In this document: one piece after another, positions 2,484 to 53,342 of the stretch
How the letters are laid out: each line of letters begins with the position of its first letter
Numbering within the stretch: position 1 is the first letter of the stretch
Origin: Sedimenticola sp.
Lineage (GTDB): Bacteria > Pseudomonadota > Gammaproteobacteria > Chromatiales > Chromatiaceae
Length of the DNA: 64,000 bases
Assembly (NCBI GenBank): GCA_026984735.1
Contig: JALSRN010000101.1
Location: forward strand, 34,176 to 98,175
Reading direction: 5' to 3'
Made by a program: the position numbers and the translations under genes
Notes under the pieces: model-generated
What the model was told of the DNA's origin: nothing
The model's input: the letters and a program-made list of their open reading frames with translations, nothing else
Databases searched by the model: none

Positions 2484-4909
2484 TGGTCATTCCACGACGA
2501 GTCTTGCGCGGTGGCTGAAGCACGAATTGACATCTTGGAGTGGGGAAGCGGTGCGGCGTCCGTAGCCCTCCGCCAGGCTCCATGAATCCTACGCGTCAGC
2601 CAGTAACCTACCGCAATGCCAATGAACTCCAGCACCAGATCCGTGCTTCCCGCGATCTTTTCAGGAAGGGCTAATTGGCCCACCTCCACCGCCAATGGCC
2701 AGATCAGTACCGGCGTCAAACAGGCAGTTCCCCGAAGCTCTTTCCTGTGGCAGCTCATTCCCAGTGCCGCCAGGCCACCCAGCGGCATGAAAAAGGCCAC
2801 CTTGTGAATCAACTCGGTTACAGCCCTGTACTCGGTTCCGTAATAGTAGCTGAGGAAAGGAATCCGAAAGAAACCGGTAAGTTTTTCATTGATGAAGGAC
2901 GGTTGGAGACGAAAATCGAAGGGATACCAAAATATGGCCAGTAACACGCCACACCACCCCAGCAAAGCCGCGCAAGCGATGGCGGGACAGCGGCGATGTT
3001 CGAGGAACGACGAAGCGGTTTTCGTCGAAAAACCATGGGAAAGAAGACGGGTGCCCATCCGAGCGCCAAGCAATCCCCCTAACGTTGCCGTGAAGACGTC
3101 GGTGACGTCGGTCACCCGGGAATAGACGAAAAGCTGCATCGTCTCCAGCAACAACGCCAGAGCGGTCGTGACTGCCCATGATTTGAGAAGCGAAAGATTC
3201 CGGGAGAGCACCAGCAACAGACCCACCGGCACCCAGAGCAGCGTGTCCGTGGCCAGGGCATAGGCCCATTCGACCGGCGATCCGACATGAAAGCCGAACG
3301 GAATCAAAACAAGTTGACCATTTTTCCATTTATGGTAGATCTCCACGGGGCTCAAGGTGAGATCGAGGGGAAGTACGCCGTAAATGAAAACCACGGCCAG
3401 GTAGGCCCGGAGCAGATATTCGGCCAGTTGCGACCCCTCCACCGCCTGGTGGAATCCTTCCGCCCAGGCGACGATCTTTTCGCCTCTCCATCCCCACAAT
3501 AACAGACCGGCGGCGGCTCCCAGAAACTCGGCCACCAGATCGTTGAGGGAGACCGTCCTCTGGGGAAAGAAGAGCTGAGTGAACTCGATCATCGATGCCA
3601 GCACGACGGCGAACCCCAACATCAGGATGTATTTGACCGGGCTACATTTCGAAAACCGGCGAAAGAGGGCACAACCGAAAAATGTGAGGGGGATGAACAG
3701 AAGAATATTGGCCACCCAGTCGGCACGGGAACCGATGCCCAGCTGCAGGTAGCGGATTTGGAGGAAAGCGCGCCAAGCTTCATTCCAAGGTCGGGGATGG
3801 AAATCCAGAGGGACCAGGCTGCCATAGATCACGAAAAACAGATAACCGAGGAACAGGGCCGGCCAGAACCAGCGCGGTTTCTTCTTTCGCGGAAGCGCAT
3901 TCGTTCTAGAGGTTGCGACATTCGTTGATGGAAGGGCTTTCGAAGGCGAAGGGATGGGCCGGGTTCCTTTTTCTCGGCGAGACGATGAATTTCCACGATG
4001 GAATACAGGGTACTGAGAGAGTCCGAGCAGCAAAACCATTCCCAGATGGCCGGCGAGATATCGGATCAGCAGTTCACCACCCTGCGCATAATGGTTCCGG
4101 TCGGTGCTGAGCAGGAAGGAGAGGCCGGAGAAGACTTGTCCGTATTTGTACACCCGGGGATTCATGGCGAGGTTGATCGACAGAAACCCCGCCGCCAGCG
4201 TGAGCGCCAGCAACACCAGCAACGCGCCGGTCTGCCCGAAGCTGCCCCCCAGGCGGGCACCCATGGCGCTGCCGCCCACCGCCACCAGCAGCAGCCAGAG
4301 GGATAGAAAAAGGCCATAGCCCCCCTTGGCTCCTGTCGTCAACAGCTCCACCAGATTGTCGGTGGCCGCTTGATCCACCACCACCCAGTAGCAGAGGGGC
4401 ACCAAGAGCACCGCCAGGAGCGTCCAGGCTCCGAAAGGACGAAACCGGCCCGACCGGAGCCCGTTGAAGAGCAGAGCTCCCCCTATCAGCATGAGGTCCA
4501 CCCATCCGAACAGCGCAGCGAAACGCAAGGCGCGCTCCAGCTCCCCCGGCCAAGTCAGCACCGGGTTGCCCACGATATCGTGAATGCTTTCCAGCGGAAC
4601 GCTCAGGCGAAGGAAAAGATAGGTGAGGAGCGCGTGGACCAGAATCGCCGGCGGAGTTTGCCGGAGTCCCCGTGACGGATCGCTTTGCAGGCGTAACGAA
4701 AGCCACGCAGGGATCGAGAAGGCGAAAAGCGTCACCCCCGCAAGCAGCGCCGCGGCGACAGGGGCCGGCCAGCGTTCGAACAGTTCATGAACGTTGTAAG
4801 GGATGGCGGGAACCAGGGAAACCCCCCACAACGACAGAGCGGCGATGCTCCATGCCGCCAGAAAGGGAGGGGCATGGAGGCTGGCTCGCTGTTCCTCGAT
4901 CCTCTTCAA
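2480..4909 (-). CDS. Polytopic membrane protein with three tandem VanZ-like domains
   Basis: About 809 residues with roughly 20 predicted membrane segments. The first ~340 residues hold about eight helices of no family I recognise. Three VanZ-like units follow, each a first helix ending in a (Y)PLDF/PFDF-type motif, a helix with a conserved acidic/hydrophobic ELTQLF-like segment, and a closing helix after a D-L pair: IYGSLVPLDFHPR...MIEFTQLFF, IYGVLPLDLTLS...LLETMQLFV and IFWYPFDFRLQ...AVEVGQLAL. The track start at 5023 lies inside the upstream gene. I prefer TTG at 4909, which overlaps the upstream stop as TTGA. The 3' end overlaps the TIGR03790 start by 4 nt. VanZ domains are found in teicoplanin resistance and in envelope loci; the substrate here is unknown. 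Confidence 0.8.
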   Translation of the reverse strand: MKRIEEQRASLHAPPFLAAWSIAALSLWGVSLVPAIPYNVHELFERWPAPVAAALLAGVTLFAFSIPAWLSLRLQSDPSRGLRQTPPAILVHALLTYLFLRLSVPLESIHDIVGNPVLTWPGELERALRFAALFGWVDLMLIGGALLFNGLRSGRFRPFGAWTLLAVLLVPLCYWVVVDQAATDNLVELLTTGAKGGYGLFLSLWLLLVAVGGSAMGARLGGSFGQTGALLVLLALTLAAGFLSINLAMNPRVYKYGQVFSGLSFLLSTDRNHYAQGGELLIRYLAGHLGMVLLLGLSQYPVFHRGNSSSRREKGTRPIPSPSKALPSTNVATSRTNALPRKKKPRWFWPALFLGYLFFVIYGSLVPLDFHPRPWNEAWRAFLQIRYLQLGIGSRADWVANILLFIPLTFFGCALFRRFSKCSPVKYILMLGFAVVLASMIEFTQLFFPQRTVSLNDLVAEFLGAAAGLLLWGWRGEKIVAWAEGFHQAVEGSQLAEYLLRAYLAVVFIYGVLPLDLTLSPVEIYHKWKNGQLVLIPFGFHVGSPVEWAYALATDTLLWVPVGLLLVLSRNLSLLKSWAVTTALALLLETMQLFVYSRVTDVTDVFTATLGGLLGARMGTRLLSHGFSTKTASSFLEHRRCPAIACAALLGWCGVLLAIFWYPFDFRLQPSFINEKLTGFFRIPFLSYYYGTEYRAVTELIHKVAFFMPLGGLAALGMSCHRKELRGTACLTPVLIWPLAVEVGQLALPEKIAGSTDLVLEFIGIAVGYWLTRRIHGAWRRATDAAPLPHSKMSIRASATAQDSSWNDQ

Positions 4910-44703: not shown

Positions 44704-45047
44704 GGGGTAATCGTGAAAGAAAGGTTCCGGGGAGCGGCGCGTCGATCATCGCGCTTTCGGAAAAAGGAGGCGTGAAGTCGGCGGTTTGCAGCTGGCAGAT
44801 TGCAGCGGCGCAATCGCAGGAACAGCCCTGCCCAGCCTGAAGGGCTGCATGGGGACCGTCGGGGACGCCGTGAACACTTCGTACCTGCGGAGTCGGTCTC
44901 GGCTTCCATGCCGCGGACACCCCGCCCCTTTTTCCCTTTCAGGCCCTCGAACCGGGCTTCGCAGCGGCTCAGGACCCGATTCATGGGATTGTCCTGCATG
45001 GGGCCGTGGCGGGCGGCAAGTCGATCATCCGCTTTGCCAACCGCCGC
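44704..45047. other. Intergenic region between ahcY and metF with hairpins and repeat-like sequence
   Basis: 344 nt. The track ORF at 44700-44999 overlaps the metF start and has no domain, so I treat the stretch as non-coding. Hairpins: GATTGC-AGCGGC-GCAATC (44798-44815) and CAGCCCT-11 nt-AGGGCTG (44823-44847). ACGCCGTGAA and ACTTCGT at 44865-44882 recur, inverted, in the gap-pgk repeat. I see no known riboswitch signature. Confidence 0.5.
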
Positions 45048-50887: not shown

Positions 50888-51967
<1,080 letters not shown>

Positions 51968-51980
51968 TCGACCAGGAAAA

Positions 51981-52082
51981 GCCGGCTCGGCGTTCACTTC
52001 ACGGATCTCGGCAGCAGGGATGCTGCCACGAAGTCTCCAGGGATGGATTCACGGCGTTCCGTGAAGTGAATGGTGAGCCGGC
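51981..52082. repeat. Long imperfect palindrome between gap and pgk
   Basis: Nested arms: GCCGGCTC/GAGCCGGC outside, then a 13-bp perfect TTCACTTCACGGA/TCCGTGAAGTGAA, and an inner hairpin GGCAGCA-GGGA-TGCTGCC. Between them lies AGGGATGGATTCACGGCGT, of a type I recall from dispersed intergenic repeats in gammaproteobacteria. No U tract follows the outer stem. Confidence 0.85.
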
Positions 52083-52160
52083 CATCCCGTTCCAGAATCA
52101 TTTGCCAAGGCATCGGGCCTTTGCAAATCGTTCTGAAAGACCTTCAGCAGGAGAGACAAG

Positions 52161-53342
52161 ATGTCCATAATCAAGATGACCGACCTCGACCTTTCCGGCA
52201 AGCGCGTGCTCATCCGCCAGGATCTCAACGTGCCCATCAAGGACGGCAAGGTCGCCTCCGACAAGCGTATCCGCGCTTCCCTCCCCACCATCGAAAAGTG
52301 CGTGGAGGCCGGCGCCCGGGTGATGCTCATGTCCCATCTGGGCCGGCCCACCGAGGGCGAGTACGACGAACAGTTCTCCCTCAAGCCGGTGGCCGACTAT
52401 CTTTCCGGCCTTCTGGGCCAGGAGGTGAAGCTGGTCAAGGACTATCTCGACCGGGTTCCGGAGGTGGACCAAGGCCAGGTGGTGCTTCTGGAGAACGTTC
52501 GTTTCAACAAGGGCGAGAAGAGCGACGACGAGGAGCTTTCCAAGAAATACGCGGCTCTGTGCGACGTCTACGTGATGGACGCGTTCGGCACCGCTCACCG
52601 GGCCCAGGCCTCCACCCACGGCGTGGCCCGCTTCGCTCCAGTGGCTTGCGCCGGTCCGCTCCTGGCAGGCGAGCTGGAGGCGCTGGGCAAGGCGCTCAAC
52701 GATCCCGAGCGGCCCATGGTCGCCATCGTCGGCGGTTCCAAGGTCTCCACCAAGCTGACTGTTCTGGAGAGTCTCTCCAAAGTGGTGGATCAGCTCATCC
52801 CCGGCGGCGGCATCGCCAACACCTTCATCGCCGCGGCGGGCTACGACGTGGGCAAGTCGCTCTACGAGCCCGATCTGGTGGACGAGGCCAAGCGCCTGAT
52901 GGAGGCGGCCAAGGCCAAGGGAGGCGAGATTCCCGTGCCCACCGACGTGGTGGTGGGCAAGGAGTTCTCGGAGGACGCCGAGGCGACGGTGAAGAAGGTG
53001 GACGAAGTGGCCGAGGACGACATGATCTTCGACATCGGCCCCGAGACCGCGGCGCGCTTCGCCGAGATGATGAAGGCGGCCGGCACCATCGTCTGGAACG
53101 GCCCCGTGGGCGTCTTCGAGTTCGACCAGTTCGGCGAGGGCACCAAGGCGCTGGGCGAGGCCATCGCCGAGTCCAAGGCCTTCTCCATCGCCGGCGGCGG
53201 CGATACCCTGGCGGCCGTGGACAAATACGGCCTGGCGGATCGTATATCCTATATCTCCACCGGCGGCGGCGCTTTCCTCGAGTTCCTGGAGGGCAAGAAG
53301 CTGCCCGCCGTCGCCATTCTGGAGGAGCGAGCCGGCGGTTGA
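52161..53342 (+). CDS. pgk: Phosphoglycerate kinase
   Basis: 393 residues with AGGAGAG before the ATG. Substrate site [50 protein letters not shown], and ATP-binding [15 protein letters not shown] and [13 protein letters not shown]. It phosphorylates 3-phosphoglycerate in carbon fixation or makes ATP in glycolysis. Follows the gap-pgk palindrome; pyk starts 31 nt later. Confidence 0.98.

Follow-up and report, generated by a model that had tools for sequence, protein, structure and literature searches.

Dispersed palindromic repeats are common, and their conserved cores have rarely been explained. They include the REP/BIME sequences and the REPINs associated with RAYT transposases. REPs consist of a GTAG or GTGG head and one hairpin of 20-35 nt, whose sequence is fixed in each species (PMC2817692). 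Pseudomonas fluorescens carries the R178 intergenic repeat (Silby et al. 2009, PMC2718517), which is 101 bp long with an internal 11-bp inverted repeat and is present in 18, 28 and 9 copies in three strains. Paired hairpins with ANGGA loops are found in CsrB/C, RsmX/Y/Z and the TwoAYGGAY RNA (RF01731), the last being a predicted CsrA binder (PMC4333381). The SELEX consensus of CsrA is RUACARGGAUGU, its NMR-defined site is an ANGGAN hexaloop in which CsrA contacts the A and the GGA, and the CsrA dimer bridges two sites best when over 18 nt separates them (PMC7652899). Stem-loops at 3' ends are also established as setting transcript stability and stoichiometry in operons (PMC8219983). The element described here resembles the REP/BIME and REPIN repeats in its short, intergenic, dispersed, palindromic and polymorphic nature, and shares the paired hairpins with ANGGA loops of the Csr/Rsm RNAs. 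Those RNAs are sRNAs or unplaced motifs, whereas the present family is a dispersed mobile repeat.

The window, a 64,000-nt stretch of a Sedimenticola sp. draft genome, contains a 102-nt palindrome (51981-52082, plus strand) between gap (glyceraldehyde-3-phosphate dehydrogenase; 50963-51967, plus strand, ORF open from 50906) and pgk (phosphoglycerate kinase; 52161-53342, plus strand). Pfam confirmed both genes (PF00044 and PF02800 for gap, PF00162 for pgk), with the gap stop at 51967 and the pgk start at 52161. The preliminary description had reported the palindrome at this location, and its coordinates and arms proved exact on re-inspection: an outer 8-bp pair, GCCGGCTC/GAGCCGGC (51981-51988 with 52075-52082), a perfect 13-bp pair, TTCACTTCACGGA/TCCGTGAAGTGAA (51993-52005 with 52058-52070), and an inner 7-bp hairpin, GGCAGCA-GGGA-TGCTGCC (52010-52027). 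Its account of the inner structure was right for this first hairpin and overlooked a second one, TCC-AGGGAT-GGA (52036-52047), which turns the fold into a three-way junction. In both RNA and DNA folds the 5' arm of the outer stem (51981-52005, plus strand) pairs with the 3' arm (52058-52082, plus strand). Hairpin 1, read as GGCAGC-AGGGAT-GCTGCC (52010-52027, plus strand), presents an ANGGAN hexaloop at 52016-52021, and hairpin 2 (plus strand) presents another at 52039-52044, 23 nt after loop 1. It is followed by the fixed 3' motif TTCACGGCGT (52048-52057, plus strand), comprising the bulge TTCAC plus the GGC that closes hairpin 2. The high RNA stability that had been claimed was borne out, with a folding energy of -72.4 kcal/mol over 151 nt compared to -50.3 ± 4.6 for shuffled sequences (z -4.8); the DNA fold of the 102-nt element gave a z of -9.5 against shuffles. 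As also claimed, there is no U tract after the GC stem, as an intrinsic terminator would have, and a scan of 51981-52082 for an intrinsic terminator and a sigma-70 promoter found neither.

One suggestion of the preliminary description was a mobile palindromic repeat, and the genome search agreed with it, since the window copy is not unique and belongs to a family dispersed in its own genome and across Gammaproteobacteria. The 20-nt core CAGGGATGGATTCACGGCGT has 13 matches within 3 mismatches in the draft genome, including the window copy, while the reversed control pattern has none. The cores of the further copies differ from that of the window copy by 2-3 mismatches. Judging the folds by eye, 12 of the 13 matches look like true members (about 11 convincing ones besides the window copy), and the remaining one (C94) lacks the family fold and falls in what looks like coding sequence. 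The arms of the window copy have no second occurrence in its own genome. The core is present in 45 of 195 genomes of the order, with 65, 46, 23 and 5 copies in four Sedimenticola congeners. Among named genomes, at least 119 core-bearing stretches were found, from hosts including Sedimenticola, Xanthomonas, Stenotrophomonas, Luteimonas, Pseudomonas, Halopseudomonas, Microbulbifer, Marinobacter, Rheinheimera, Thiocapsa, Ectothiorhodospira, Thioalkalivibrio and Methylotuvimicrobium. Matches within 2 mismatches numbered 626 in Methylotuvimicrobium buryatense 5G, 62 in Xanthomonas hortorum and 29 in Marinobacter salarius. A phage or plasmid origin of the family was considered and rejected, as there were no phage matches and plasmid carriage was seen in one Enterobacter plasmid. 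This plasmid, from Enterobacter chuandaensis, is one of the few matches beyond the usual hosts; it holds an inverted pair of copies (L254:3755-3853 and 3978-4073), with a gene for a 6-phospho-beta-glucosidase on one side and one for a LacI-type regulator on the other.

Thirty-seven diverse copies were aligned without gaps over 96 columns (alignment A1). The family folds as a three-way junction with a long outer stem of variable sequence, a hairpin 1 with a variable stem, a short-stemmed hairpin 2 and the fixed 3' TTCACGGCGT, whose columns 65-74 are invariant in A1, although this motif partly served as a detection criterion for copies. With the structure read from the sequences, 34 of the 38 pairs showed two-sided changes, including all ten pairs of the hairpin 1 helix (columns 23-32/39-48). 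The cells with two-sided changes numbered 436 compared to 150.6 in shuffles, 84.2% of cells paired compared to 55.9% when shuffled, and the covariation score of 0.708 stood against 0.20 after shuffling and no more than 0.273 when the structure was slid. The sequence of the outer stem is essentially free, and the arms of one copy pair better with each other than with the arms of different copies (mean duplex energies of -36.9 and -24.4 kcal/mol, respectively, in named hosts). A covariance model of these copies matched the window copy at 51984-52079 with 88.4 bits (E 2.7e-24), a score that is not independent, as this copy is one of the 37 training sequences.

All A1 copies except the window's were picked for a GGA in loop 1, which is therefore not independent in that alignment. 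With the loop bases left unconstrained, hairpin 1 had at least four contiguous pairs in 127 of 193 copies, and in these 127 hexaloops position 1 was A in 119, followed by any base and then by G in 114, G in 115 and A in 117; in 107 the distance from the start of loop 1 to loop 2 was 23 nt. When the six loop bases of hairpin 2 were left free in ten genomes, ANGGAN was found in 145 of 150 copies among the matches listed (a manual count), with all four bases at each N position. What the sequences of the family preserve is a three-way junction that displays two ANGGAN hexaloops at a spacing of 23 nt.

Mismatches in the arms indicate which strand folds. Strand-symmetric mutation alone predicts equal numbers of G.T and A.C mismatches, and 95 G.T were counted against 36 A.C; by copy the excess was 32:6 in named hosts and 23:5 in the Sedimenticola group, although the copies share kinship and the p-values of this test are not strict. 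In hairpin 1 the mismatches were 18 G.T and 6 A.C in named hosts, and 9 G.T and 16 A.C in the Sedimenticola group. Because of the G.T excess in the outer stem, the strand carrying GGA probably folds as a single strand, either RNA or ssDNA.

The constant bases of the loops suggest a reader of the folded strand. A dimeric protein would grip both loops at once, and the known protein that would best fit this recognition is CsrA/RsmA, acting on RNA. Hairpin 2, CUACAGGGAUGUA, was set beside the SELEX consensus RUACARGGAUGU, and the family has ANGGA in hairpin hexaloops at two sites more than 18 nt apart. CsrA is encoded in the same genome as the window (G000:C17:4898-5053, E 7.4e-26) and in 178 of the 195 genomes of the order, too widely to be discriminating; the CsrA search gave no match in three element-bearing genomes (G194, G207 and G211, 70-84% complete). 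The conservation extends beyond ANGGA to AGCC and TTCACGGCGT, which CsrA does not require. We regard the family as a dispersed palindromic repeat of a known type, for which CsrA binding is the leading mechanism that we infer from the sequences.

Many copies lie at unrelated sites, and close relatives differ in their presence. A spacer of about 450 bp with two copies in G008, a Sedimenticola congener, corresponds to 19 bp in its close relative G002, with flanks up to 96% identical. A comparison of these two genomes gave no clean empty sites with exact junctions, and entire spacer clusters differ. With a rough ORF caller, 23 copies were sense to co-directional genes, 28 antisense, 27 in convergent and 19 in divergent spacers; the same caller placed 72 copies in long ORFs, which were taken as mostly spurious. 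Two chromosomes with noisy GC skew, and therefore low power, showed opposite or unclear trends in replication-strand bias. The window itself holds a second copy, between ahcY and metF (44846-44941, minus strand, sense to the genes; CM 30.7 bits, E 8.9e-7), which is decayed, with many outer pairs and loop 2 gone. Because there is no orientation bias, close relatives differ and copies decay, the family behaves as a mobile MITE/REP-like repeat that is not generally retained by the host, and it probably carries dual CsrA-type sites. It differs from REPs in being about 100 nt long and three-way, with stems that vary freely and loops that are fixed. The assignment to RAYT-type REPs was rejected, as the A1 consensus does not show their layout, in which a GTAG/GTGG head immediately precedes one short hairpin (Table 1 of PMC2817692).

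Some copies carry additional segments. In L098:14720-14917 and L103:2876-3073, an extra structured segment of 104 nt follows CAGGG in the loop of hairpin 1, and similar segments after CAGGG are seen in the Sedimenticola copies L066, L083, L090, L108 and L110, so another small element may be targeting this loop. In L088, L094, L130 (G013), L178, L207 and L246, the CAGGG or CAGG of hairpin 1 is followed by an insert of another kind, which also bears a hairpin and often contains CCATCCCTGG, the usual loop in reverse complement. In G008 (L095-L114), family copies are often flanked on both sides by GTAGGTCGGGCTTCAGCCCGAC REP-like palindromes. An unrelated repeat of about 160 bp (L098:11454-11613) has dozens of copies with 84-90% identity in G002.

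At the gap-pgk spacer, the window copy was compared with the sequences in relatives. A perfect stem longer than that of any of 60 shuffles lies within the first 110 nt after gap in 23 of the 27 gap-pgk spacers examined (counting the window's), and the arms of these stems are unrelated in sequence between clades. In two of them, G004 and G007, the longest stem is the downstream conserved repeat, and a gap-proximal hairpin is also present there. The family itself occurs in this spacer in three arrangements: sense and beside gap in the window genome, antisense and beside gap in G013, and antisense further down the spacer, beside a simple gap hairpin, in G008 and G002. The window copy thus sits where relatives have their hairpin after gap, and it has probably taken over as the gap 3' stem-loop. 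The preliminary description had also considered a role in mRNA protection or processing, which appears plausible given that a hairpin of unrelated sequence is maintained at this position in relatives. Lying in sense orientation directly after gap, the window copy would be transcribed with the operon in place of the simple hairpin of relatives. At the gap end of the tkt-gap-pgk-pyk-fba message it would act as a stabiliser or as punctuation, and it would also offer CsrA a docking site there. In G012, the arms that form the simple hairpin of G008 recur in the gap 3' hairpin, where they enclose an insert of about 46 nt. The idea taken from this, that the core inserts into the loops of existing hairpins, was not adopted, as the insert matches hairpin 1 alone, and weakly (12.4 bits, E 0.49).

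Taken as a whole, a mobile palindromic repeat whose GGA strand is read by a CsrA-like dimer, and which here forms a gap 3' stem-loop, is a reading on which we are evenly divided. The wider proposal, a pan-gammaproteobacterial element that spreads ready-made dual CsrA/RsmA-binding sites and whose transposition continually rewires or titrates the post-transcriptional Csr/Rsm network, is somewhat less likely than not. Against a transcribed regulatory role are the lack of a sense/antisense bias and the fact that divergent spacers are not avoided; the antisense gap-pgk copies of G013 and of G008/G002 also count against this reading. The absence of orientation bias fits a selfish, non-autonomous DNA that is moved as top-strand ssDNA by an HUH/Y1-type (REP/RAYT-like) transposase recognising the two GGA-loop hairpins, with any RNA effects accidental; this is also possible, on somewhat less than even terms. 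It would account for presence and absence between genomes with flanks about 96% identical, for the decay of the old copy at 44846-44941, and for the position of G008 copies among GTAGGTCGGGCTTCAGCCCGAC palindromes resembling RAYT-type REPs (PMC2817692), and a folded ssDNA intermediate also predicts the G.T excess. However, a transposase partner was not found, in a search covering DUF3800 only, no consistent replication-strand bias was seen (two chromosomes, low power), and a loop with A and GGA fixed and both N positions free is the contact pattern of CsrA. The stems change freely while pairing holds, and the two loops retain precisely the bases contacted by CsrA/RsmA. If the loops bind CsrA, a repeat with up to hundreds of copies would supply many overlooked binding sites to a regulator that acts globally on metabolism and lifestyle; if a transposase reads them instead, the family would define the DNA on which an unknown mobilisation system acts.

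Selection by the host for a cis element of the gap-pgk operon, a stabiliser or attenuator of the gap 3' end, would explain why a strong hairpin of unrelated sequence lies at the same position in nearly all relatives, why the gap-pgk copy is intact while the second copy in the window is decayed, and why at least two other arrangements place the family in the same spacer. We nevertheless consider it improbable, as the core belongs to a genome-wide family and the element is not itself conserved in the spacer, where its position and orientation vary by species. Far less probable still is membership in the Rfam family DUF3800-IV RNA (RF02963), which likewise has a core with an inner hairpin set between long pairing arms and gave a weak match at precisely the element's boundaries (22.8 bits, E 0.16). 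This score is far under the gathering score of 60.7, and the Rfam scan of the element found nothing above gathering. The consensus letters differ, and the DUF3800 protein is absent from G000, G008, G012 and G013, of which G008 and G013 are copy-rich congeners. With a sub-gathering score and no gene association, this identity is largely refuted.

Open-access literature yielded no description of the core letters or of a CsrA-linked repeat. Within the literature searched, the structure shared across the class, with its two CsrA-type loops, appears not to have been described; copies in single genomes may have been noticed before. R178 of P. fluorescens may belong to the same family.

A second inverted repeat, CAGAATCATTTGCCAAGGC-GCCTTTGCAAATCGTTCTG, lies just before pgk at 52092-52136. 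Fifteen members of the genus and one relative further away carry it at the same position, and its arms change in pairs, for example AAGGC/GCCTT against AAACC/GGTTT; it is a candidate conserved leader hairpin or operator of pgk. Elsewhere in the window, an SAH riboswitch (RF01057; 46489-46559, minus strand, 70.5 bits) was found upstream of ahcY, within a metK-ahcY-metF cluster.
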